Below, piece after piece: positions 671 to 36,458 of a stretch of DNA of 64,000 nucleotides. The DNA is from Allokutzneria sp. A3M-2-11 16 (lineage in GTDB: Bacteria; Actinomycetota; Actinomycetes; Mycobacteriales; Pseudonocardiaceae), in NCBI RefSeq assembly GCF_024213555.1, contig NZ_JANAVO010000002.1:418269-482268 (forward strand). The letters run 5' to 3'. The translations under genes were made by a program, and so were the position numbers. How positions within the stretch are numbered: the first letter of the stretch is position 1; each line of letters starts with the position of its first letter. The notes beneath the pieces are model-generated. The model had not been told where the DNA came from. It made no database searches and saw only the letters and a list, made by a program, of their open reading frames with translations.

Positions 671-1918
671 GTGAAGGGCACCGAGCGCGGGCGTGCGGCG
701 GTGTGGTGCCTGCTCGGCGCGACCGGGTTGTCGGTGATGGGCAACTCGGTGGTGGCGATGGCGCTGCCGTGGCTGATCCTGCAACGCACGGGCAGCGCGA
801 CGGCGGCGGGGCTCGTGGCCTCCGCGGCGGTGCTGCCGGGCGTGCTGTCGGCGATGTTCGGCAGCGCGTTGATCGACCGCGTCGGCCGCAAGCTGATCAG
901 CAACGGGGCGGATGTGCTCAGCGCGCTGGCGGTGGCGGCGGTGCCGATCGTCGACGCGCTGTTCGGGCTGAACGCGGCGATCGTGGCGTTGTTGGTGGCG
1001 ATCGGCGCGACCTTCGACGGCCCGGGCATGGCCGCGCGCGAGTCACTGCGCCCGGACGTGGCCAAGCACTGCGGCGTCCCGCTGGTGAAGCTCAACGCGT
1101 GGGGCGAGACGATCGACAGCCTCGGCGCGTTCGGCGGCCCCGCGGTCGCGGGCGTGCTGATCGGCTTCGTCGGACCGGCGAACACGCTGTGGGTGACGGT
1201 CGGCATGTTCCTGGTGGCCGTCGCGCTGGTGTGGTTCGGCGTGCCGAGGGTGCCGCCGCGCCCGCAGGCCCGCGAGGAGTCCTACCTCCGGTCGGTGCGC
1301 ACCGGGCTGGTGTTCGTGCTGCGCGATCCCGTGCTGCGCTCGGTCACCGTGATGTCGGTGATCGCGATGATCTTCCTGAGCTCGATCGACCCGGTGTTCT
1401 TCCCGGCCTACCTCCAGGGCGAGGCGGTCCCGCCCGCGCTGGCCGGGCTCGTGCTGGCGGCGTTCCCGATCGGCACGGTGATCGGCGCGCTGGGCTACGG
1501 CATGGTCGCGGAGCGGCTGAACATGCGGCTCACCCTGACCGGCGGGCTGCTGCTGGCCGGGGTCGGACTCTCGCTGTACGTGTTCACGCCGCCGGTCTAC
1601 GGCATGATCGCGCTCGCCGTGGCGATCGGGATCGTGGCGGGCCCGCTGAACCCGATCGTCGCGACGGCGCACCAGCAGCGCACGCCGGACCACCTGCGCG
1701 GGCGCGTGATCGGCACGGTCGTCGCGCTGAGCACGGCGCTCACCCCGGTCGGCCTGCTCGCCGCGGGCCCGGTGGTCGACGGGTTCGGCGCGCCGTTCGG
1801 CTTCGTGGTGATCGGGGCCGGATGCGCCCTCACCGCCCTGTACTGCTTCTTCAGCAAGGGAATCCGGGCGATCGACTCCCCTCAGCCCAGCCCCGCCTTG
1901 CCGTCGGCGACCGTGTAG
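671..1918 (+). CDS. MFS transporter (drug/metabolite exporter type)
   Basis: About 415 residues with the alternating hydrophobic segments of a 12-helix major facilitator, starting with a helix at about residues 10-35 (LLGATGLSVMGNSVVAMALP). A conserved DRVGRK-type loop between helices 2 and 3 is the MFS motif A, and a second RGRVIG loop opens the C-terminal half. It is a secondary transporter of the inner membrane; the substrate is unknown. The start is uncertain: the GTG at 671 directly follows GGGAGG, which is too close for an ideal ribosome site, while a GTG at 653 is the alternative. The reading frame extends much further upstream but only through repeats. Its last 37 bases overlap the end of the convergent PhoD gene. 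Confidence 0.85.
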   Translation: MKGTERGRAAVWCLLGATGLSVMGNSVVAMALPWLILQRTGSATAAGLVASAAVLPGVLSAMFGSALIDRVGRKLISNGADVLSALAVAAVPIVDALFGLNAAIVALLVAIGATFDGPGMAARESLRPDVAKHCGVPLVKLNAWGETIDSLGAFGGPAVAGVLIGFVGPANTLWVTVGMFLVAVALVWFGVPRVPPRPQAREESYLRSVRTGLVFVLRDPVLRSVTVMSVIAMIFLSSIDPVFFPAYLQGEAVPPALAGLVLAAFPIGTVIGALGYGMVAERLNMRLTLTGGLLLAGVGLSLYVFTPPVYGMIALAVAIGIVAGPLNPIVATAHQQRTPDHLRGRVIGTVVALSTALTPVGLLAAGPVVDGFGAPFGFVVIGAGCALTALYCFFSKGIRAIDSPQPSPALPSATV

Positions 1919-3387
1919 GTCTTCGCCACGCTCCTGGTGACCTTGGCCGGATTGGGTTCCAGGGCGTTGGAAATGGTGAAGTACTGCGTCGTCAGCTTCT
2001 CCGGTGTGACGGTGGTGTGCGCGTAGCCGCGGCGCTGGCTGACGAAGCGCAGGTGCGGGTTGGCTTTCAGGTACGCCGCGCTCGGCACCCCGTCGTTGGG
2101 CGAGGTGATCGAGCCGACCACGAACTCGGTGCCGACGACGGGAGCGTTGGCGGCGAAGTAGTCCTGCTTGATGTTGGCCGCCCAGTGCCGGTGCACGTCA
2201 CCGGTCAGCACGACGGGATTGCGCACCTGGCGGTCCAGCCAGCCCTGGACGATCCGGTCGCGGGAGTGCGGGTAGCCGTCCCACGCATCGGTGCTGACGT
2301 CGCAGGTCGCGGGTTTGCCGTCGTCGTCGCGCTGCGCGAAGAACACTTGCTGCCCAAGGAAATCCCACCGCGCCGAGCGCTCGGCGAGCCCGTCGAGCAG
2401 CCACTTCTCCTGCACGTCCCCGGTCAGCGTGCGGCGGGGGTCGCGGATCACTCCGCAGTCCTTCTCCGGCGCCTGCTTCCACCGGTACTGGCGCGTGTCG
2501 AGCATGTGGAACCGCGCCAGCCCACCCCAGGAAACCCTGCGGTACAAGGGAATCGCGGTCCCATTGGGACGCTGTGCTGCACGCAGCGGCATGTTCTCGT
2601 AGAACGCCCGCAGCGCGGCGGTCTTGCGCACCTTGAAGTCCCCGGCGGGGCTGTTGTCGTTGCGCTGGTCGGCGGCCCAGTTGTTCTCCACCTCGTGGTC
2701 GTCGAACACCACGAGCCACGGAGCCGCCGCGTGCGCGGCCTGGAGGTTGGGGTCCATCCGATGCTGGGCGTAGCGCAGGCGGTACTCAGCGAGCGTCGTG
2801 ACTTCCTTGCGTGGCGCGTACTTCCGCGGCGGACTGGCCACTTTGGACGGTGACTCGTAGATGTAGTCGCCGAGGAAGAGCACGAGGTCGGGCTTGTCCT
2901 GCGCCATGTACCGGTAGGCGTGGAAGAAGCCGTGCTCGTAGTGCGCGCACGAGCCGAACGCGAAGGTCAGCTTCGCCGCCAAACCGGAAGGAGCGGTTCC
3001 GGCGGTCCCATGTGGAGACTCGTGGCCATCGGAGAGGAAGCGGTAGAAGTACTTCGCCCCGGCCTTCAACCCGCCGACCTCCACGTGCACGGTGTGCGCG
3101 TCGGCGGGGCGGGCGAGCACGGCGCCGGAAGCGGCGAGCGGGACGAAGGACTCGTTTTCCGAGACCTCCCAACGGACTTCGACGTCGCGGTTGGGCATGC
3201 CGCCGAGCCCGTCACCGTTCAAGGGCGCGACCGCGAGCCGTGTCCACAGCACGAATCCGTCCGTGCTCGGTTCTCCGGACGCGACGCCGAGGGTGAACGG
3301 CGAAGCGCTGAGGTGCCGGGCGGGCGCGGCGCCGGTCGCGGCCACGAGGCCACCGAGCAGGAAGATGCGGCGGTTCAGCTGGGCCAT
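1882..3387 (-). CDS. phoD: PhoD-type alkaline phosphatase, Tat-exported
   Basis: 501 residues. The N-terminus carries a twin-arginine signal (NRRIFLLGG, R6-R7), so it should be exported folded by Tat. Residues 30-130 form the PhoD N-terminal beta domain and 138-480 the calcium/iron-dependent metallophosphatase domain. Metal and active-site motifs are visible: GSC at 145-147, GDY at 173-175, DDHEVENNW at 229-237 and TGDVHRHW at 395-402. It hydrolyses phosphomonoesters or diesters outside the cell, for phosphate supply or wall teichoic acid turnover. ATG start is one base after the stop of the small I36-type gene upstream, so the two are probably co-transcribed. No PHO box was identified. It ends inside the 3' end of the convergent MFS gene. 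Confidence 0.93.
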   Translation of the reverse strand: MAQLNRRIFLLGGLVAATGAAPARHLSASPFTLGVASGEPSTDGFVLWTRLAVAPLNGDGLGGMPNRDVEVRWEVSENESFVPLAASGAVLARPADAHTVHVEVGGLKAGAKYFYRFLSDGHESPHGTAGTAPSGLAAKLTFAFGSCAHYEHGFFHAYRYMAQDKPDLVLFLGDYIYESPSKVASPPRKYAPRKEVTTLAEYRLRYAQHRMDPNLQAAHAAAPWLVVFDDHEVENNWAADQRNDNSPAGDFKVRKTAALRAFYENMPLRAAQRPNGTAIPLYRRVSWGGLARFHMLDTRQYRWKQAPEKDCGVIRDPRRTLTGDVQEKWLLDGLAERSARWDFLGQQVFFAQRDDDGKPATCDVSTDAWDGYPHSRDRIVQGWLDRQVRNPVVLTGDVHRHWAANIKQDYFAANAPVVGTEFVVGSITSPNDGVPSAAYLKANPHLRFVSQRRGYAHTTVTPEKLTTQYFTISNALEPNPAKVTRSVAKTYTVADGKAGLG

Positions 3388-3388
3388 G

Positions 3389-3772
3389 TCAGCACGCCGT
3401 CCACTTGTGCGAGCTGGCCAGGTTGTCCAGCAGCCGCAGGTTCGACACGGCCGACCGCGGGCCGATGGTGATCATCGGCTTGGCGTGGCTGATGTCCTGG
3501 TACAGCGTCACGCAGCGCGCCGGATCGTTGTTGACCACCGAGGTGGCCCGGTTGTCGAGCGTGTAGGTCGTCCCGTGGAAGACGTCGCCGTTGGTGTAGT
3601 TCGCGTCGTCACCCACGAAGTCCAGAAGTCCGCCGGTGTAGTTGGCCAGCCGGTACACGCACAGCTCGCCTGACTCGCACTTGCCGTTCTTGCTCGCCGC
3701 CGACGCCGTCCCTCCGGTCGCCAGCACGAGCAGCAAGGCGCTCGCCAACACCGCCACAGTTCGCCTGACCAT
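3389..3772 (-). CDS. peptidase inhibitor I36-like secreted protein
   Basis: 127 residues with a Sec signal peptide (about 1-26, cleavage near ASA-A). The mature part has four cysteines and a crystallin-like pattern (CVYRLANYTGG, then YTNGDVF, then CVTLYQD), resembling the small Streptomyces metalloproteinase inhibitor family I36. Expected role is an extracellular small beta protein, possibly a protease inhibitor; activity is not shown by the sequence. ATG at 3770-3772 follows a GGGGGACGC ribosome site. It is the first gene of a two-gene unit with phoD, separated by one base. Confidence 0.75.
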   Translation of the reverse strand: MVRRTVAVLASALLLVLATGGTASAASKNGKCESGELCVYRLANYTGGLLDFVGDDANYTNGDVFHGTTYTLDNRATSVVNNDPARCVTLYQDISHAKPMITIGPRSAVSNLRLLDNLASSHKWTAC

Positions 3773-3850
3773 GCGTCCCCCAGTCAGTCTCTGACGTGCA
3801 ACGCGAAGACCTTGTCAGGATCTGTCAGGCTGTCGTACCGCCGAATGCCG

Positions 3851-3877
3851 AAAAACCCCGGCACCTGGCCGGGGTTT
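3851..3877 (-). terminator. intrinsic terminator of the M23 peptidase gene
   Basis: A 9-bp stem AAACCCCGG / CCGGGGTTT (3853-3861 / 3869-3877) with a 7-nt loop. On the minus strand the hairpin is followed by a run of T (GGGGTTTTT), the classic rho-independent form. It begins 16 bases past the M23 stop codon. Confidence 0.8.
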
Positions 3878-3892
3878 CGGGAACGGGCGGAA

Positions 3893-4759
3893 TCAGACGA
3901 AGATGCCGCGCTGGGCGAGCCACGCCTTCGGGTCGACGTCGCGACCGCCGGGCAGCTGCACCTCGAAGTGCAGGTGCGGGCCGGTGGACTGGCCGCGGTT
4001 GCCGATGGTGGCGATCTGGTCGCCCGCCTTCACCTGCGCGCCGAGGCGGGTGAGGATCTTGTCCATGTGGCCGTAGGTGGTGATGGTGCCGTCCGCGTGC
4101 TGGACGCGCACCCACAGGCCGAAGCCGCTGGCCGGACCGGCGTCGATGACCACGCCCGCCGCGGCGGCCCGGATCGGGGTGCCGATGGCGTTGGCGATGT
4201 CGATGCCGCGGTGGCTGCCGCCCCAGCGGGCGCCGAAGCCGGACGTGAGCCTGCCCTCGGCGGGCTTGGCGAAGGCTCCGCGCACGGAGCTCTTCTTGTC
4301 CTCGGCGGCCTTGCGGACGTCCTCGGCGGCCTTCACGGCCTTCTTGGCGGCCTCCTCGGCCGCGGTGCGCGCCTGGTTCTCGGCGGCGGAGCGCTCGTCC
4401 TGCGCCCGCAGGCCCAGGCTCAGCTTGGTGAGCTCCGCGGAGGGGTCGCTCTGCGCCAGGTTCGGCAGCATCTCCACTGCCTTGGGCGGCGCGGCGTAGC
4501 GGGCCTTGAAGAGGTTGGCCTCGGCCGCGGAGGAATCGGTGCTGCCCGCGGCGGATGCTCCCTGGTAACCGATGACGATCAGGGCGCCCGCCGCGACCGC
4601 TGCGACCGCCGCTTTACCGGCGGGAGCGGGCTTGGTTCCGGAGGGGCGGCGGACCCGCTTGGGGCCGGCGATCCTGCCTGCGCGTTGTAAAGCTTCTTCC
4701 AGAGCCGGGGAGGTTGCCCCACCCGGAGAACGATGTCGAGCCACTACCAGCCCTTTCAC
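3893..4759 (-). CDS. M23 family peptidoglycan metallopeptidase
   Basis: 288 residues. A single membrane segment lies at about 50-71, then an Ala/Lys/Glu-rich helical stretch (115-160) likely forms a coiled coil, then the lysostaphin-type domain (168-285). Zinc ligands and catalytic residues are visible: H183-x3-D187 (HRGID), H231 in GHMD, and H262-x-H264 in HLHFE. It would cleave peptide cross-links or stem peptides of peptidoglycan at the cell surface, from a membrane anchor. All active-site residues are intact. The gene stands alone and has an intrinsic terminator; a perfect palindrome lies ~140 bp upstream. Actinobacterial M23 genes are sometimes under a cyclic-di-AMP riboswitch, but I could not match that motif here. 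Confidence 0.9.
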   Translation of the reverse strand: MKGLVVARHRSPGGATSPALEEALQRAGRIAGPKRVRRPSGTKPAPAGKAAVAAVAAGALIVIGYQGASAAGSTDSSAAEANLFKARYAAPPKAVEMLPNLAQSDPSAELTKLSLGLRAQDERSAAENQARTAAEEAAKKAVKAAEDVRKAAEDKKSSVRGAFAKPAEGRLTSGFGARWGGSHRGIDIANAIGTPIRAAAAGVVIDAGPASGFGLWVRVQHADGTITTYGHMDKILTRLGAQVKAGDQIATIGNRGQSTGPHLHFEVQLPGGRDVDPKAWLAQRGIFV

Positions 4760-4899
4760 TCACGTCGGGGAGTCCGGACAGGACGCCCGGCGGGGGATCC
4801 GGGTGACACCGGCTGGGCCGCCGCTGTCGTGTCCGTGCTGCTGTTCGGACCGTGATGTGCAGCGGCGAAGCTAACGGGGGGTTACCAGTAGGGGCAACC

Positions 4900-4920
4900 C
4901 TCACCCGCCTGGCGGGTGAG
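4900..4920. promoter_or_regulatory. perfect 21-bp palindrome upstream of the M23 gene
   Basis: CTCACCCGCC / GGCGGGTGAG are perfect 10-bp arms around one base, in the 285-bp gap between the M23 peptidase start and the end of the histidine kinase gene. Nearby on the same strand is a second short palindrome AACTA-CGTT-TAGTT (about 4933-4946). Either could be an operator for the M23 promoter or a terminator of the kinase operon. No binding protein can be named. Confidence 0.45.
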
Positions 4921-5044
4921 CTATCCCACAAACAACTACGTTTAGTTAACGCAACCTTGAGCTGGTCCGCAGCTCGCCGACCGCGGACCTGGACACTCGA
5001 CCACATGCGCCGAATCCGGAAAGTCACCACGCAGATGGCGGCGG

Positions 5045-6034
5045 TCATTGCTGCGAACGCGCGCTTGACCGCGCCGCGCGCGGCACGGTAACCCGGAACC
5101 GGCAACCGGTTCCGTGGTTCGACACGGCGATGGCGCCGCCGAGCGCCTTGATCAATCCCTGCGCGATCGGCAGCCCGAGACCGGCCCCCGACTCCCCCGG
5201 CGTCCGCGCGGAACCACCCCGGAAAGCGACGTCGAACACGCGCTCAAGGTCCTCCGCCGGGATGCCGCCGCATTCGTCATCAACCGTCACCCAGGCGTGG
5301 CTGTCGGTCACACCCGCGCGAACCGTGACCGTCCCGCCCCTAGGGGTGTGCCGGAGCGCGTTGTCGAGCAGGTTCCGCAGTGCTCGGCCGAGCTCACGCT
5401 CCCCGCCGAGCACCACCGGCCACTCCGTCACCTCCACGCGCACAGAAGAGGAGCCGACCGCGTCCTCTACAACGTCGCGCAGCGGCACCGGCTCGCGTCG
5501 AGGCCGCACTTCGCCCGCGTTGATCCGAGACAGCTCGAAGAGGTCGTCGACCATCCCGGACAGGCGGTCGGTCTCGCCGCGAACGCGGAGGGCGTACTCG
5601 CGCGCCTCCGCGGGATCGGACACGACCCCGTCCGCGAGGGCCTCGGTCATGACCCGGATGCCCGCGAGCGGAGTGCGCAGGTCGTGGCTGATCCAGGAGA
5701 CGAGTTCGCGGCGGGCGCGTTCGGCCTCGCGCTCCCACACGCTGTGCCTGCTGATCGAGCGGCCGAGGAGCAGCGCCACCGGCACGGTGATCAGCGTGAC
5801 GAGCCCGCACACCACGAGCGCGGCCTGCGTCTGCTGGGTGTACATGAAGCCGCAGATGCCGATGATCCCGGCCAGCGTGGCGGCGAGCGGGACCAGGACG
5901 AGCACCCCCATCGACACGGTCAGCGAGCCGCGCCGCAGGCGGTGCAGTAATACAGTGCCGAGCGCCGCGACCGGCACCGCGCAGGCGAGCCCGATCAGCG
6001 CCATCTTCGGCAGGTCGGCGAGCACCGGGCTCAC
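5045..6034 (-). CDS. sensor histidine kinase
   Basis: 329 residues from a GTG that overlaps the TGA of the response regulator (GTGA), so the two are translationally coupled; a longer open frame upstream lies inside the regulator gene and is rejected. Three membrane helices fill about residues 11-92, with almost no extracellular domain, so the signal is probably sensed in the membrane. The HisKA box [13 protein letters not shown] places the phosphorylated His at about 117. The N-box ([13 protein letters not shown]) and G-box (GAGLGLPIA) of the ATPase domain follow. It autophosphorylates and passes phosphate to the regulator encoded just before it. No terminator is obvious downstream. Confidence 0.92.
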
Positions 6035-29782: not shown

Positions 29783-30568
29783 CTAGCTCGCCGACCGGCG
29801 GGCGCCGGTCATCACGGGCTCGGCGTCCAGGACGCGCAGGCCCCCGCCGAAGCCCTCGGGCCCCGGCACGAGCAGCCCGTTGGACAGGGCGTTGGCCACG
29901 GCCGCCGCCCGGTCGCTGACGTGCAGCTTGGAGAAGACCCGCTGCAGGTGGGTCTTCACGGTGGTCTCGGCGACGAAGAGCCTGCGGCCGATCTCGGCGT
30001 TGGTCAGCCCCTCGGCGACCAGGCGGAGCACGTCCAGCTCGCGGCCGGAGAGCACCGAACGGCTCTCCTGCCTGCGCAGCCGCGGCATCCGGCCGGGGAC
30101 GGGCAGCAGCTGCGACGGCATGGCCGCGACGCCGCTGCGGGCCTGGCGGACCGCGGAGATCAGCTCCTCCGGCGCGGCGGTCTTGAGCACGAAGCCCATC
30201 GCGCCCGCCTCCAGCGCCGCCCCGGCCCGCGCCTGGTTGTCGGAGAAGACGACGACCACGACGGGCAGGCGGGTGCGCAGGACGGCCTTGATGACCTCGA
30301 TGCCGTCGACCTCGCCGAGGTCGATGTCCACCAGGACCACGTCCGGGCGCGCCGCGCAGACCTGGTCCACGACGCGGGCGCCACCACCGACGGCACCGAC
30401 GAAGGCGAAGTCGGGGTGCCTGCCGAAACAGGCCCGCAACCCTTCAGCCACGACCGGGTGACGGTCGACGGCGAGCACGCGCAGCCTGGTGTCCTGCGGT
30501 TCCTCGCGCGAGCAGGTGCACGAAAGTTCGCGTGGCCGCAGGTCAGGCGGCGGAGTGTGCAGCGACAT
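29783..30568 (-). CDS. NarL/LuxR-family response regulator (orphan)
   Basis: 261 residues from the ATG at 30568 (GGAAAGG 8 bases upstream). After a 30-residue extension, the receiver domain (about 30-150) shows VLAVDRHPVV for the acidic pocket, LVDIDLGEVDG with the phosphoacceptor Asp, and VLKTAAP with the conserved Lys. A LuxR-type HTH (185-250) contains LSGRELDVLRLVAEGLTNAEIGRRL. No histidine kinase is adjacent, so the partner is elsewhere. A clear promoter lies upstream (30655-30684). The neighbour upstream is the XRE-TPR/peptide pair; any functional link is speculative. Confidence 0.9.
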   Translation of the reverse strand: MSLHTPPPDLRPRELSCTCSREEPQDTRLRVLAVDRHPVVAEGLRACFGRHPDFAFVGAVGGGARVVDQVCAARPDVVLVDIDLGEVDGIEVIKAVLRTRLPVVVVVFSDNQARAGAALEAGAMGFVLKTAAPEELISAVRQARSGVAAMPSQLLPVPGRMPRLRRQESRSVLSGRELDVLRLVAEGLTNAEIGRRLFVAETTVKTHLQRVFSKLHVSDRAAAVANALSNGLLVPGPEGFGGGLRVLDAEPVMTGARRSAS

Positions 30569-30654
30569 GACAGACCTTTCCACTGGCCCCCGGGACAGAG
30601 CTGACAACGTGGAATCGCAACTTGCCGCGAGTGTTGACAACTTCTGACAACCCG

Positions 30655-30684
30655 ATCCTACTTAAGTAGGCCTCCGTCAGTCAA
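30655..30684 (-). promoter_or_regulatory. promoter of the LuxR-type regulator with palindromic -10
   Basis: Minus strand: -35 TTGACT (30684-30679), an 18-nt spacer, and -10 TAGGAT (30660-30655). The perfect 14-bp palindrome CCTACTTAAGTAGG (30657-30670) covers the -10, so a bound protein would block it. The leader of about 80 nt contains two TTGTCAG/TTGTCAAC boxes. Confidence 0.65.
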
Positions 30685-30805
30685 CACGTGTGTCATCGGG
30701 ATGGGCAGCGTCTTCCGCCCCGGCAACGCGCCGTTAACCTGCAAGTAGGTACGGCCGGAGTAGCCCGGACGCGTGTCGTTCGGCCAGAGTACGCCGCGGC
30801 GCCGC

Positions 30806-30823
30806 TTGTCAAACTGTTGACAA
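30806..30823. promoter_or_regulatory. TTGTCAA-N4-TTGACAA palindrome
   Basis: Perfect 7-bp arms around ACTG in the gap between the XRE and LuxR-type genes. The half site recurs as TTGACAAC at 30634 and TCTGACAAC at 30643 closer to the LuxR-type gene, so it may be a set of operator sites for one regulator, possibly the response regulator itself. Confidence 0.45.
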
Positions 30824-30877
30824 CCCGTCCCGTACCACCGAGTCACGTTGACGGGCCCGGCTCGCCCTTTTACCCTT

Positions 30878-30920
30878 CTGCCCGTGAACACAGTGGGTGA
30901 GCACCACTGTGAACGGGCAG
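30878..30920. terminator. bulged hairpin downstream of the XRE gene
   Basis: CTGCCCGT (30878-30885) pairs with ACGGGCAG (30913-30920) and CACAGTGG (30889-30896) with CCACTGTG (30904-30911), leaving a small internal loop. It is 125 bases beyond the XRE stop and has no T-run. Confidence 0.4.
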
Positions 30921-31045
30921 CACCATGGCGCGATGGACCTACCTTCGTAGCCACTCAGTCAGGGCCAACCATGACAGTGTGTGACAGGCGAGCGGGCGGC
31001 TCGCGGGACGGCGAGCCGGTCTCCCCAGGGGCAGGGGAGCGCCGG

Positions 31046-32374
31046 CTACGCGCGTGCGCGCTGATCGCGCAGGGTCTGCACGGACAACGAGGCCACCTCT
31101 TTGAGCAGCGCCGGGCGCACCTCGTCCGGATCGGCCGAGTCCAGGTGCTGCAGCAGCTCGTCCAGCGCGCTGAGCCGCCGCTCCTCCCGCCCCAGCTGGG
31201 CACTGAGCCGCACGATGGTCATCAGCGCCCGCATCTGGTCTGCGGTGTCCAGGGGTCCGGTCAGCGCGCTCTCCGCATGATCGAGAGCGCTTTCCAGCTG
31301 CCCCGAGCGAACCGCGACGGCCGCGCGCATCAGCGCGACCTGCGAGTCGACCTGGCTGTTGGCGGCCCGGCGCAGCTCGGTGACCTCTTCGAGCAGGGAC
31401 TCGGGGGAGACCGGCAGCGGCAGCTCGAAGTTCAGCACCATGTAGACGGCGGTGAGCCGGACCCGGCACCACAGGTCGGTGCCGATGGCTCCCGCCGGGT
31501 GCGCCAGGGCGGCCTGGATCTGCTCGGCGGCCTGGTCCAGGAAGCCCGCCCGGGTCAGGGCGCCCGCGTAGGTCCAGTGCATGGTGACCGCGGCCTCGGT
31601 GAACGTGGAGCGGCCGCGCCAGTCCGGGACGTCCGGCGGTCCGGCGTTGACCAGCTCGATGCCCCGGGCGCACACCTGGAGCGCCTCGTCGATCCGGCGG
31701 GCCTCCGCCAGCGAGGACGCCAGCGAGACCGACGCGCGCAGGCGCAGCGGCCACGCCTGGCCCGGGGGGAATCCGGCGTTGGCCAGGCCCTCCGCCTCCA
31801 GCAACGCCTTCTGCGCCAGCTCGGCGGCCTCGCGGAAACGACCGAGGTTGCGCAGCGCGGCGGCGTTGAGCGTTTCGGTGACGACCTTGGCGGACGCGGG
31901 CAGACCCCGGTACATCGGCTCGATCGCCTCGAGCCGGTCCGCGACCTCCTGGGTGCGGCCGAGCTTGCTGGCGCACGCGGCGGCGACGTACTCGCAGAAC
32001 CACCGGTCCTGCGGGTCGCGGACGTTCTCCCGCAGGGCGTCGAGCACCTCCAGCGCCGCGTCCGGCCTGCCCTCCAGGAGCAGGTCCATCACGCGGGCGC
32101 CGCCCACCATGAACTCACCACCGCTGACGCGGGTGCCGTTGTCGAGCCCGGCGAAGGACTCGGTCGGCACCCCCAGCCGCGCGGCGAGCTGTTCCACCAC
32201 CTTGGGAGTCGGCGTGCGTTGCCCGGACTCCAGACGGGACAGGTAGCTGCTCGACAGCCCTTCACCGGCGAGGTCGCGTTGGGTCAGACCTCGGGAAACA
32301 CGAAGAGCACGCAGTCGGTCACCGAACGTGGCAGGCAGCTCGCGTTCGGCGCTGACTCGATCGGCAGATGTCAT
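31046..32374 (-). CDS. XRE-family regulator with TPR-like sensor domain
   Basis: 442 residues. An N-terminal lambda-repressor-type HTH (about 15-75) contains LRALRVSRGLTQRDLAGEGLSSSYLSRLESG. The rest (90-440) is a series of paired helices with TPR character (AAALRNLGRFREAAELAQKAL; ARRIDEALQVCARGIEL), the layout of peptide-responsive RRNPP-type regulators and of many actinobacterial XRE regulators. The ATG at 32374 has no ribosome site; TAGCTA six bases upstream could be a -10 for a leaderless mRNA. The start lies inside a perfect TGTCATGACA palindrome. A gene for a short, possibly secreted peptide starts 27 bases away on the other strand. Peptide sensing is inference. Confidence 0.87.
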   Translation of the reverse strand: MTSADRVSAERELPATFGDRLRALRVSRGLTQRDLAGEGLSSSYLSRLESGQRTPTPKVVEQLAARLGVPTESFAGLDNGTRVSGGEFMVGGARVMDLLLEGRPDAALEVLDALRENVRDPQDRWFCEYVAAACASKLGRTQEVADRLEAIEPMYRGLPASAKVVTETLNAAALRNLGRFREAAELAQKALLEAEGLANAGFPPGQAWPLRLRASVSLASSLAEARRIDEALQVCARGIELVNAGPPDVPDWRGRSTFTEAAVTMHWTYAGALTRAGFLDQAAEQIQAALAHPAGAIGTDLWCRVRLTAVYMVLNFELPLPVSPESLLEEVTELRRAANSQVDSQVALMRAAVAVRSGQLESALDHAESALTGPLDTADQMRALMTIVRLSAQLGREERRLSALDELLQHLDSADPDEVRPALLKEVASLSVQTLRDQRARA

Positions 32375-32378
32375 GACA
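32369..32378. promoter_or_regulatory. TGTCATGACA palindrome over the XRE start codon
   Basis: A perfect 10-bp palindrome that includes the XRE ATG, within the 27-bp gap separating it from the divergent peptide gene. ATGACA half sites recur at the LuxR-type gene start (30566) and in the terminator stem beyond the peptide gene (32744). It is a candidate autoregulatory operator acting on both genes. Confidence 0.4.
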
Positions 32379-32401
32379 GGTAGCTACTCAAGGAGGCAGG
32401 C

Positions 32402-32719
32402 ATGCTTGTTGCCTTTCTGATGACACTGTACGCGGGAATTCTTTCACCGCTAGACAGTGGCGTTCAATCCACCGATACCACTTCGACACTCAGCGCGCCG
32501 ATGCAGCAGGTCCAGGCGCCTCCGAGTCACAAGCCATGCGACATCGCATGGCCGTTCTGCCAGCCTCCGAACCCGAAGTCCGCCGTCGCCGAACTTGCCA
32601 TGGACCCGGGTGGCATCGGTAACCCCGGCGGGATCGAGTGGCCGGACTCACTCGGCACCACCCTCGCCAGCAGCAGGCCGCCGAAGACGGGGCCAGGCGT
32701 CGAGTGGCCGAACTCCTGA
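32402..32719 (+). CDS. 105-residue peptide precursor with repeated WP motifs
   Basis: ATG at 32402 with a near-ideal AAGGAGG site five bases upstream, so it is very likely translated. Residues 2-17 are hydrophobic (LVAFLMTLYAGILSPL), like a short export signal, although no basic residue precedes them. The rest is Pro/Gly/Ser-rich and low in structure, with three repeats of one core: DIAWPF (47-52, between C46 and C53), GIEWPDS (77-83) and GVEWPNS (99-105, the exact C-terminus). I recognise no family. Divergent pairing with an XRE-TPR regulator suggests a signal-peptide precursor, the repeats being candidate mature peptides. A hairpin terminator follows. Confidence 0.7.
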   Translation: MLVAFLMTLYAGILSPLDSGVQSTDTTSTLSAPMQQVQAPPSHKPCDIAWPFCQPPNPKSAVAELAMDPGGIGNPGGIEWPDSLGTTLASSRPPKTGPGVEWPNS

Positions 32720-32743
32720 CCGCCGGGGTCGAATAGCGCCGAC

Positions 32744-32794
32744 ATGACATGAGGGACGGGGTGCCAGCGAGGGCAGCATCCCGTCCCTTGTCAT
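32744..32794. terminator. long hairpin between the peptide and DedA genes
   Basis: ATGACA and AGGGACGGG (32744-32760, two-base bulge) pair with CCCGTCCCT and TGTCAT (32780-32794), giving a 15-bp stem. It lies 25 bp after the peptide stop and 37 bp before the end of the convergent DedA gene, so it can act as a bidirectional terminator. Confidence 0.7.
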
Positions 32795-32830
32795 ATCCGG
32801 GTCATGCCCGGGGACTGAAGAGCAGCGCGG

Positions 32831-33496
32831 TCAGTGCGCCTCCTCCAGCTGCTTCTCCTCCTCCGGAGGCGTCGCGGCGGCGGCCTTCTTGGCCTTGCTC
32901 TTGCGGACCAGCAGGAACACCGCGGCGGCGAGGACGACGGCGCCGAGCACGACGAAGCCGGCGGTGCTGAGCTTGTCCTCGATCTGCTTGGCGGCCTCAC
33001 CGGCCATGGCGGCGATGCTGACGTGCAACGCGGCCCACGGTGCCGCGCCGCAGATCGAGGCGATCAGCAGCTTCGGGTAGGCCAGGCCCGCGGTACCGGC
33101 GGCGGCCGGGGTCAGCGAGCGGACGACGGGCAGCCACCTGGCGAAGAACACCGCCCACGCGCCGCGGCGGCGGATCAGCGCGGTGGCCTTGTCCCAGTTG
33201 TCCTGGCCCATCTTCTTGATGATCCGGGTCTCCCTGAGCTTGCCGCCGAAGCGCCTGCCGATCAGGTAACCGGTGGAGTCACCGGCGACGGCGGCCAGCG
33301 TGACGACGGCCCACATCACGATGCCGGTGCCGAGCGACTTGACGGTGCTCGCGGCGACCAGCAGCCCCACCTCGCCGGGCACGAAGATGCCGAGGCCGAC
33401 GGTGGTCTCGCCGAAGGTGAAGGCCGCGGCGGCGGCGAGTACCAGCGGCTGCGGCAGCCCGGCGATGGACTCCAGGCCGTCAGTGATCAGTCCCAC
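32831..33496 (-). CDS. DedA family membrane protein
   Basis: 221 residues from the GTG at 33496 (GGGGGAAG upstream). The membrane-embedded SNARE-associated/DedA core has the ends GIFVPGEVGLLVAAS and FFARWLPVVRSLTPAAAG, the latter carrying the conserved arginines of the family, followed by a last helix and a Lys/Glu-rich cytoplasmic tail (KSKAKKAAAATPPEEEKQ). DedA proteins act as lipid scramblases or flippases, including undecaprenyl-phosphate recycling. It is a single-gene unit, convergent with the peptide gene. Confidence 0.9.
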   Translation of the reverse strand: MGLITDGLESIAGLPQPLVLAAAAAFTFGETTVGLGIFVPGEVGLLVAASTVKSLGTGIVMWAVVTLAAVAGDSTGYLIGRRFGGKLRETRIIKKMGQDNWDKATALIRRRGAWAVFFARWLPVVRSLTPAAAGTAGLAYPKLLIASICGAAPWAALHVSIAAMAGEAAKQIEDKLSTAGFVVLGAVVLAAAVFLLVRKSKAKKAAAATPPEEEKQLEEAH

Positions 33497-34151: not shown

Positions 34152-36458
34152 ATGATCAACAGCCGCCGCGCGCGCACCTCGGCCGGGGAGCACGCCAGCA
34201 CCGGACCGCCCGGCCCCGAGGCGGCCCAGCGGCAGTCCACGTTCGCCACCGTGCTCCGGCACGACCTGCCCGCCTCGCTGGTGGTGCTGCTGATCGCGAT
34301 CCCGCTGTCGCTGGGCATCGCCGCCGCCTCCGGCGCCCCGATGATCTCCGGCCTGATCGCCGCGGTGGTCGGCGGTGTGGTCGCCGGAGCGCTGAGCGGG
34401 GCTCCGCTGCAGGTCAGCGGCCCGGCCGCCGGTCTGACAGTGATCGTCGCCGGGATGATCGCCCAGTACGGCTGGGCGGCGACGGCGTTCATCACCGTGT
34501 GCGGCGGTGCCGTGCAGCTCGTCCTGGGCATCACCCGGATGGGCAGGGCCGCCCTGTCCCTGTCCCCCGCCGTGGTGCACGGCATGCTCGCGGGCATCGG
34601 CGCGGTGATCGCGCTGAGCCAGATCCACGTCGTGCTCGGCGGTCAGGCGCAGAGCTCGGTGATCGCCAACCTGCGCGACCTGCCCGGCCAGATCGTCGGC
34701 CACCACGACGCGGCGTTCGGGATCGGCATCGTGACCTTCGCGGTGCTGCTGGTGTGGCCGAGGATTCCCAAGGTGTCGCTGATCCCCGCGCCCCTGGTCG
34801 CGGTCGCGGTCGCCACCGCGGTGTCCATCGGCTTCGGGCTCACCGTGCCCAGGGTGGACCTGCCGGACAACCCCCTCACCGGCCTGGCCCTGCCCACGCT
34901 GCCCGTGGGTGACCTCGGCGGCATCATCATCGCGATCTTCACCATCGCCGCCGTCGCCAGCGTCGAGTCGCTGCTGTCCGCGGTCGCGGTGGACAAGCTG
35001 CACTCCGGGGCGCGGGCGAACCTGGACAAGGAGCTCGTCGCGCAGGGCGCGGCCAACATGGCCTCCGGCGCGCTGGGCGGCCTGCCGGTCACCGGCGTCA
35101 TCGTCCGCAGCTCCACCAACGTGGCCGCGGGCGCGCGGACCCGGGCGTCGGCGATCCTGCACGGCGTCTGGATCGCGCTGTTCGTGCTGTTCCTGGGCAG
35201 CACGCTGGAGCTGATCCCGATGGCCGCGCTGGCCTCGGTGCTGGTGCTCACCGGTATCCGCCTGGTCAGCCTCGCGCACATGCGGGAGCTGTGGCGGCAC
35301 CGCGAGTTCCCGGTGTACGTGGTCACCTTCGCCGGTGTGGTGTTCTTGGACCTGGTCAAGGGCGTGCTGCTGGGCATCGCGGTGGCGCTGCTGCTGGCGC
35401 TGTGGCGGCTGACCAGGGCGACCGTGGAGGTCGTCGAGGACTCGGCCGAGGAATGGCGCGTCGTCGTGCGCGGGTCGCTGATCTTCCTGGGGGTCGCGAA
35501 CCTGATCAACGAGCTGCGTCGGGTCCCGGAGGGCAGGAACGTCGTGCTGGAGCTGCACGTGGACTTCATGGACCACGCGGGCTACGAGGCGATCCACGAC
35601 TGGCGCTCCGGCTACGAGCGGACCGGCGGCGCGGTTCGCGTCGACGAGGTGCACGACACCTGGTACCAGCGGGCCCGCCAGGGCAAGCCGGAGCAGCACA
35701 AGAGCCTGCCCGGCCAGCTGCCGAGGTGGTTCGCGCCGTGGTCGTACTGGCAGAACATGCACTCCGACGGCGGCGAACCGGACGCGGGCACGATCGTTCC
35801 GGAGCCGCGTCCCGGTGCCGACCCGATGATGCTCGGCATGCACGAGTTCCAGCGCAGCGCGGCGCCGCTGGTGCGGCCGTTCCTGTCGGAGCTGGCCGAG
35901 CGGGGGCAGAAGCCCAGCCAGTTCTTCATCAGCTGCGCCGACTCGCGCGTGGTGCCGAACATGATCACCAGCAGCGGTCCCGGTGACCTGTTCACCACTC
36001 GCAACGTCGGGAACCTGGTGCCGCGCAACGACATCCCGAGCATCGGCTCCTCGGTGGGCGCGTCGATCGAGTTCGCCGTCGAGGCGCTGGAGGTGCCCAA
36101 CATCGTGGTCTGCGGGCACTCGCACTGCGGTGCCATGAAAGCCTCGTTGCACGGCGGGGTCCGCGAGGGCACGCACCTCGCGTCCTGGTTGCGGCACGCG
36201 GAGCCGAGCCTGGAGCGCTACCACGCCCGCGAGGACGACGGCCACGACGCCGACATGACCCCGGCGGACCGGCTGAGCGTGCTCAACGTGGTGCAGCAGC
36301 TGGAGAACCTGATGACCTACCCCTCGGTGCGCGAGGCGGTGGAGGAGGGCCGGCTGACCCTGGTCGGGCTGTACTTCGACATCTCCGACGCTCGTGTCCA
36401 CGTGGTGGACCCGGAGACCGGGCGACTGTCCCCTGTGGACCCCGCGACCGTGCTCTGA
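34152..36458 (+). CDS. SulP anion transporter fused to beta-carbonic anhydrase
   Basis: 768 residues. Residues 35-440 form the SulP membrane domain (start HDLPASLVVLLIAIPLSLGIA; SLC26-type helices), 450-530 a STAS-like cytoplasmic domain (VVLELHVDFMDHAGYEAIHDW), and about 575-768 a beta-carbonic anhydrase. The anhydrase zinc site is complete: C595 with D597-R599 in SCADSRVVP, then H656 and C659 in CGHSHCGA. Such fusions are thought to couple bicarbonate or sulfate uptake to CO2/bicarbonate interconversion at the inner face of the membrane. ATG 34152 has GGAGG 11 bases upstream. A textbook terminator follows. Confidence 0.93.
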   Translation: MINSRRARTSAGEHASTGPPGPEAAQRQSTFATVLRHDLPASLVVLLIAIPLSLGIAAASGAPMISGLIAAVVGGVVAGALSGAPLQVSGPAAGLTVIVAGMIAQYGWAATAFITVCGGAVQLVLGITRMGRAALSLSPAVVHGMLAGIGAVIALSQIHVVLGGQAQSSVIANLRDLPGQIVGHHDAAFGIGIVTFAVLLVWPRIPKVSLIPAPLVAVAVATAVSIGFGLTVPRVDLPDNPLTGLALPTLPVGDLGGIIIAIFTIAAVASVESLLSAVAVDKLHSGARANLDKELVAQGAANMASGALGGLPVTGVIVRSSTNVAAGARTRASAILHGVWIALFVLFLGSTLELIPMAALASVLVLTGIRLVSLAHMRELWRHREFPVYVVTFAGVVFLDLVKGVLLGIAVALLLALWRLTRATVEVVEDSAEEWRVVVRGSLIFLGVANLINELRRVPEGRNVVLELHVDFMDHAGYEAIHDWRSGYERTGGAVRVDEVHDTWYQRARQGKPEQHKSLPGQLPRWFAPWSYWQNMHSDGGEPDAGTIVPEPRPGADPMMLGMHEFQRSAAPLVRPFLSELAERGQKPSQFFISCADSRVVPNMITSSGPGDLFTTRNVGNLVPRNDIPSIGSSVGASIEFAVEALEVPNIVVCGHSHCGAMKASLHGGVREGTHLASWLRHAEPSLERYHAREDDGHDADMTPADRLSVLNVVQQLENLMTYPSVREAVEEGRLTLVGLYFDISDARVHVVDPETGRLSPVDPATVL

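Follow-up and report, generated by a model that had tools for sequence, protein, structure and literature searches.

A putative peptide-pheromone gene pair with a multi-copy propeptide and an XRE-TPR receptor in Allokutzneria and Crossiella

A regulator gene and a peptide gene at one locus

The DNA analysed here is a stretch of 64,000 nucleotides (the window) from the 8.8-Mb genome of Allokutzneria sp. A3M-2-11 16, in which a regulator gene and a short peptide gene are transcribed divergently from start codons 27 bp apart (Table 1). This arrangement had been reported in the initial annotation together with a near-ideal AAGGAGG ribosome-binding site for the peptide gene, and both were confirmed: the AAGGAGG lies at 32390-32396, 5 nt upstream of the ATG, which is the sole start codon past an in-frame TAG. 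The regulator, hereafter called the receptor, was correctly described as an HTH joined to TPR-like helices. The HTH was detected at residues ~16-71 (HTH_31, E 2.8e-13; HTH_3, E 4.9e-13) with TPR-like matches after it, and this domain order, an N-terminal XRE-type HTH and then TPR-like helices, is that of the RRNPPA receptors. The length of the peptide and its hydrophobic N-terminus were also as first noted, the former by the reading frame and the latter by the hydropathy values given below, and its assignment to no described family agrees with the database searches, in which it had no match in Pfam or NCBIfam (both at E<=1). All three of the WP repeats noted earlier, of the form [IV][EA]WP, are found at I48-P51, I78-P81 and V100-P103, and the first is placed between C46 and C53 as stated. 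The third had been taken as the exact C-terminus, but N104-S105 follow it, and it is therefore near the end and not at it. The cores are not identical to one another.

Table 1. Positions of the genes and sequence elements of the locus in the window
Feature	Position	Strand	Remarks
LuxR-type response regulator, syntenic neighbour, candidate target	29783..30640	-	
XRE HTH + TPR regulator, proposed cytoplasmic pheromone receptor/transcription factor	31046..32374	-	442 aa
TGTCATGACA palindrome spanning the start codon of the receptor (candidate operator)	32369..32378	.	
27-bp intergenic region with AAGGAGG ribosome-binding site	32375..32401	.	same spacing in 8 orthologous loci
Proposed pheromone propeptide gene	32402..32719	+	105 aa, hydrophobic N-terminus, three [DG][IV][EA]WP cores
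Second TGTCAT box, candidate operator/promoter element	32420..32425	-	in peptide codons 7-8
Core copy 1, DIAWP	32540..32554	+	residues 47-51, bracketed by Cys46 and Cys53
Core copy 2, GIEWP	32630..32644	+	residues 77-81, then DS
Core copy 3, GVEWP	32696..32710	+	residues 99-103, then NS and stop
Terminator-like stable hairpin 3' of the peptide gene	32749..32788	+	MFE -37.3 kcal/mol for 32735-32800, z -5.1

Cysteine-bracketed WP cores were seen as CDIAWPFC in the window (32537-32560), CGNVAWPDAC in locus L032 and CGDVAWPGFC in locus L033. A disulfide loop could close around these cores, which would possibly give a cyclic signal in addition to the linear one of the G[IV]EWP copies.

A search of the 390 genomes of the family, in which 4 candidates per genome were scored, yielded close receptor orthologues (E<=1e-40) in 8: 3 of 3 from the genus of the window and 5 from another genus, which we infer from sequence to be Crossiella. 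The divergent peptide gene is present in all of these eight loci, the window included, and the two starts are separated by 27 bp each time. The nearest named relative of the receptor is from Allokutzneria sp. NRRL B-24872 (93% identical), followed by those of two Crossiella strains (56% and 54%), whose peptides equal the ones of genomes G236 and G235. The first 25 residues of the peptide are nearly constant across the loci (M-x-VA-[FL]-LMTLYAGI...QSTD), and beyond residue 25 the peptides differ in both length (93 to 133 aa for the whole protein) and sequence. The mean hydropathy of residues 1-14 was 2.0-2.3 in the seven genes scored, and the eighth gene, from L042, does not differ from that of L041 in residues 1-25. 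The N-terminus in both genera is hydrophobic but contains no Lys or Arg, and because of this it is not a textbook Sec leader. When the window peptide was used as a query against 60 relatives, strong matches were obtained only within the genus and in G018 (E 8.5e-7). A match in G038 (E 4.2e-4) and weaker ones (E 0.0077 and up) were rejected as noise; many of the weaker ones contain in-frame stops and some do not, and most of them were judged without inspection.

The TGTCAT box at the receptor start recurs in the 6 other loci examined, and the full TGTCATGACA palindrome is not present in all of them. The box in peptide codons 7-8 has the same position in the 6 other loci examined, and a further one is found at the start of the response-regulator gene in the window and in 6 other loci. 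TGTCAT has 14 matches in the 64-kb window, 8 of which fall within 30567-32794 (two of them being the two strands of one palindrome). Since the motif was picked after the region had been seen and the loci are related, it is regarded as a candidate operator only. The four-fold sites of peptide codons 1-25 were the same in 7-8 of 9 in three between-genus pairs, and those of receptor codons 81-446 in 59-64 of 125-130; for the pair L031/L040, the values were 8/9 in the peptide against 59/125 in the receptor body. From this unusual conservation, peptide codons 1-25 may double as regulatory DNA, perhaps as the receptor promoter.

The response-regulator family is found beside the receptor, and a DedA-type family up to about 5 kb from it, in all six Allokutzneria and Crossiella loci compared. 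Because the neighbour family is kept in 6/6 loci, the response regulator is the first guess for a target. Upstream of this gene, on the - strand at 30560-31045 of the window, lie GGGTTGTCAACAGTTTGACAA and GGGTTGTCAGAAGTTGTCAACAC, which are partly conserved in Crossiella and are perhaps the response regulator's own candidate binding sites. The window also contains a SulP-type anion transporter fused to a carbonic anhydrase (34152-36458). In one Crossiella locus (L045:986-5515), a nitric-oxide synthase oxygenase gene (4154-5515) is next after the peptide gene in the same direction, and an AfsR/SARP-like BTAD-NB-ARC-TPR regulator gene (986-4099) lies beyond it. The NO synthase and SARP families are present in the four Crossiella loci compared and are not at this place in the window.

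Lineage-specific cores and repeat statistics

The cores differ by lineage and agree within genes. In Allokutzneria they have the form [DGN][IV][EA]WP, with four copies in each of the two other genes. In Crossiella, the gene of G018 has six cores (DVVYP, DVTYP, DAVYP and DVIYP), that of G234 has five (DIGHP and DLGHP), those of G236 and G237 have DLTHP four times each, and that of G235 has DITNP six times. The final copy is the exact C-terminus of the protein in 5/5 Crossiella genes. In 21 Crossiella copies (four genes, excluding the near-duplicate of G237), Asp1 and Pro5 do not vary, 3-4 different residues are seen at each of positions 2-4, and the core is flanked on both sides by four variable positions. 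The initial annotation had named as a check whether the WP core is conserved while the rest varies, and had counted peptide homologues with a changed WP as evidence against its reading. WP is kept in Allokutzneria; in Crossiella, D-[ILVA]-x-[YHN]-P stands in its place, and so, formally, such homologues exist.

Identical copies within a gene are written in different codons: four codon strings encode the four DLTHP of G236, four encode the four DIGHP of G234, and three encode the three DVVYP of G018, and only three are used for the six DITNP of G235. Since copies identical in amino acids use different synonymous codons, selection acts on the peptide. As judged from these codons, it is as peptides that the cores are kept alike, and some genes have had more recent duplication. 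Like copies, varying flanks and differing synonymous codons fit a diverging pheromone and not a meaningless repeat, and the pattern reads as a concerted turnover of putative pheromone copies in each gene.

The repeats were compared with shuffled sequences. Three [IV][EA]WP in residues 26-105 of the window peptide were reached in 0 of 100,000 residue shuffles, for a motif that was picked after being seen. By repeat counts that leave the motif unnamed, the window gene taken by itself is ordinary: its best 3-mer count was equalled in 3387, its best 4-mer in 365, its best 5-mer in 5000 and its masked 5-mer in 4370 of 5000 shuffles. The best exact 5-mer of the two other Allokutzneria genes is present in two copies, which was equalled in 75 and 45 of 5000 shuffles, respectively. 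In the Crossiella genes (four distinct and one near-duplicate), an exact 5-mer is present 3-6 times, and 0 of 5000 shuffles reached that count for each gene. Because the motif-free counts of the window gene are unremarkable, the relatives carry more of the case than the window gene does.

Receptor fold and the sister receptor clade

An AlphaFold model of the receptor built from 4 sequences (mean pLDDT 83.1, pTM 0.72) has a helical-repeat TPR part. In a Foldseek search with this model, the PlcR-PapR-DNA complex ranked first (E 4.5e-06), NprR had the highest TM-scores among the 50 matches listed (0.56 by query and 0.68 by target), and Rap-pheromone structures were also among the matches. Many TPR proteins that are not pheromone receptors, LGN included, scored nearly equally, and for this reason the similarity is consistent with an RRNPP fold and not decisive. 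The fold predicted by the model is PlcR/NprR-like. By sequence, its HTH matched the chains of PlcR and ComR among other XRE proteins, and a profile of the TPR part only gave no PDB sequence match up to E 10. The Pfam families RNPP_C and RapH_N had no match in the genome of the window at E<=1. Conserved asparagines in the peptide groove are typical of RRNPP receptors, and no invariant Asn was found in the alignment of 8 receptor sequences. Between Crossiella and the window, the HTH part (alignment columns 1-80) is 79-89% identical and the TPR part 48-51%. As far as these identities indicate, the receptor keeps its DNA contact while the putative ligand part moves with the peptide.

A sister clade of receptors was found in 28 of the 390 family genomes, in 6 genera, and the five measured are 31-36% identical to the window receptor. 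A leader-bearing short peptide is encoded nearby in 27 of the 28 genomes, and in 24 its gene is divergent, a count that takes in L059, missed by the leader-peptide pattern. Among these 24 peptides, 23 (22 from one genus and 1 from another) end in an F-x-PP-[YF]-type sequence and one holds IDWP twice. The leaders of this clade contain Lys/Arg, a hydrophobic stretch and AxA-type sites. Loci L048-L051 have no divergent peptide, and three of the four have one on the other side of the receptor. In three sister genomes, a convergent leader peptide ending in GIEWPDP lies 432, 1089 and 1111 bp downstream of the stop codon of the receptor; one of these peptides carries five copies (GIEWPDS four times and GIEWPDP), and in the other two loci a predicted gene lies between receptor and peptide. 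The single exception is G031 (L050/L078), in which no peptide was counted. A leader-like ORF of 49 aa in this genome (L078:7691-7840, - strand), which reaches the receptor stop, has no known core and was left uncounted, could be its missing peptide. Regulators lacking a nearby peptide, which the initial annotation had named as evidence against a signalling pair, are thus met with in at most 1 of 28 sister genomes. At one F-x-PP-Y-type locus, two genes for bPH_2 (bacterial PH-domain) proteins follow the peptide gene (L076:3877-5936), and by eye similar-looking genes lie upstream of the receptors of L035 and L036.

The heptapeptide GIEWPDS is common, letter for letter, to the window peptide and that of G012, which belongs to the distant receptor clade. 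The genome of the window contains one match to a degenerate DNA pattern for G[IV]EWPD, inside the peptide gene. Across 296 genomes of the class, the pattern matched 9 times, singly in each case and once in the window gene, and its reversed control 22 times; since the count is no higher than that of the control, no spread outside the family was detected. A sister receptor used as a query against 396 genomes across the phylum (4 candidates each) found only the window's own receptor at E<=1e-25. The receptor tree (36 sequences) has a separate branch for each Crossiella core type and groups the three receptors with GIEWPDP peptides. WP-type cores occur in both halves of the tree and do not form one clade; from this scatter, WP is either old or has arisen more than once.

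A proposed signalling circuit and its relation to known systems

Taken together, the sequence comparisons make it probable that the two genes form a peptide-pheromone pair, with RRNPP-like signalling in Actinomycetota, for which export, cleavage, import and binding are all postulated steps. The small gene would encode a propeptide with several copies of a short signal of about 5-7 residues, in Allokutzneria [DGN][IV][EA]WP, extended by two residues in the linear copies. It would be exported and cut around each core, at cleavage points that we infer, and the mature peptides would re-enter the cell, probably through an oligopeptide permease, where the TPR groove of the adjacent XRE-TPR protein would bind them. 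Binding would then alter what the receptor does at the 27-bp region between the two genes, the direction of regulation being likewise presumed, and the response-regulator gene beside the receptor would probably be a second target. The proposal of the initial annotation, that the WP repeats are a signal sensed by the adjacent regulator, gains support at the sequence level from the pairing in 8/8 orthologues and from the peptides near 27 of 28 sister receptors. The weak link of the pheromone circuit is export in Allokutzneria and Crossiella, because their leaders have no positive charge.

The same missing charge favours the main rival, a cell-internal loop, in which the propeptide or its fragments would bind the divergent regulator without secretion, as a cell-autonomous timer or feedback loop, and the hydrophobic N-terminus would be a mere by-product of overlapping promoter DNA. 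The four-fold sites of the first 25 codons, more conserved than those of the receptor body, also suggest that the leader may be constrained as DNA. However, the leader is hydrophobic in all 7 genes scored, and the leaders of the sister clade have the Lys/Arg, hydrophobic stretch and AxA-type sites described above; we consider self-sensing unlikely. It is highly improbable that the gene encodes a multi-core RiPP precursor under XRE-TPR control, whose WP cores would become a bioactive compound on maturation. The repetition of the cores and the copies set between cysteines do resemble multi-core precursors, but no modifying-enzyme family was found among the scanned neighbours, which are DedA-type, response-regulator and SulP-carbonic anhydrase genes in the window, and NO synthase, SARP and hydrolase genes in Crossiella. 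Slightly less credible still is a regulatory leader, in which translation of the repeat and not the peptide matters, by attenuation or RNA structure: strong DNA conservation at the 5' end and the terminator-like hairpin would suit it, but the amino acids of the copies are kept although their synonymous codons differ, Rfam has no match at gathering scores in 30400-33000, and the next recognised gene past the peptide gene in the window, the DedA-type gene, has the opposite direction. There is equally little to be said for the view that the repeats are low-complexity linkers of a small secreted protein that has nothing to do with the regulator, which the Pro-rich spacers and the motif-free tests of the window gene would allow, against the pair kept in 8/8 loci, the exact 5-mer repeats of Crossiella (0/5000 shuffles each) and the GIEWPDS-type core (GIEWPD) common to the sister clade.

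On the pheromone reading, a wider view is on balance favoured, with less assurance than the pair itself: a family of gene-encoded peptide quorum-sensing systems of Actinomycetota, with an intracellular TPR receptor that is not RRNPP by TPR sequence and is possibly of independent origin, in which the copies change together and give genus- or species-specific dialects (EWP, VYP, GHP, THP, TNP, TPPY). If this is true, short synthetic peptides would be a simple chemical handle on actinomycete gene regulation, and the loci would offer a natural series for studying the joint divergence of signal and receptor.

Peptide pheromones with TPR receptors are documented for Bacillota, and we did not find this arrangement described for Actinomycetota. 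Among the matches listed from titles and abstracts of open-licence PMC articles, a set that subscription papers and preprints lie outside, there was no RRNPP-like receptor-peptide pair from Actinobacteria. In excerpts of the respective sources, a survey of RRNPPA systems asks about and reports Firmicutes (PMC9765709), RRNPP_detector was run on complete Firmicutes and viral genomes only, with actinobacterial signals said to be typically enzyme-made small molecules (PMC10075063), and a 2026 review gives RRNPP for Gram-positives/Firmicutes and butyrolactones for Streptomyces (PMC13220807). Known actinobacterial quorum sensing resembles the proposed system as cell-density signalling in the same phylum. 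Its signals are gamma-butyrolactones and 'cyclic or modified peptides' according to the part of a 2016 review drawn on here (PMC4748050), in which, by contrast, neither a TPR receptor nor a linear propeptide with several copies is described; butyrolactones are enzyme-made.

The RRNPPA systems of Bacillota consist of a TPR receptor, mostly with an HTH, and an adjoining short gene for a propeptide with a signal of 5-10 residues, usually C-terminal (PMC11343458, in part), and propeptides with up to six signal copies are known (PMC9765709, in part). With these systems (Rap-Phr, NprR-NprX, PlcR-PapR, Rgg-SHP, PrgX, AimR) the window pair shares a TPR receptor and an adjacent short propeptide gene. 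Unlike Rap, which has no HTH, the window receptor has one. The short C-terminal, possibly repeated signal of RRNPPA would have its counterpart in the conserved cores. The window system differs in belonging to another phylum, in a TPR part without a PDB sequence match, in the absence of RNPP_C and RapH_N, in the uncharged hydrophobic leader of Allokutzneria and Crossiella, and in the core form x-[ILVA]-x-x-P. Its mode of action would be that of RRNPP, but the known RRNPP profiles do not match, and by sequence it therefore cannot be placed in that group. Some Bacillus phages have Phr propeptides in tandem duplication, Phr3T and Phr105, from each of which several mature signals arise by way of internal cuts (PMC11343458, in part), as proposed here. 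Rap receptors act on protein targets, whereas the window receptor has an XRE DNA-binding domain, and the like copies of the present system form a different set in each lineage.
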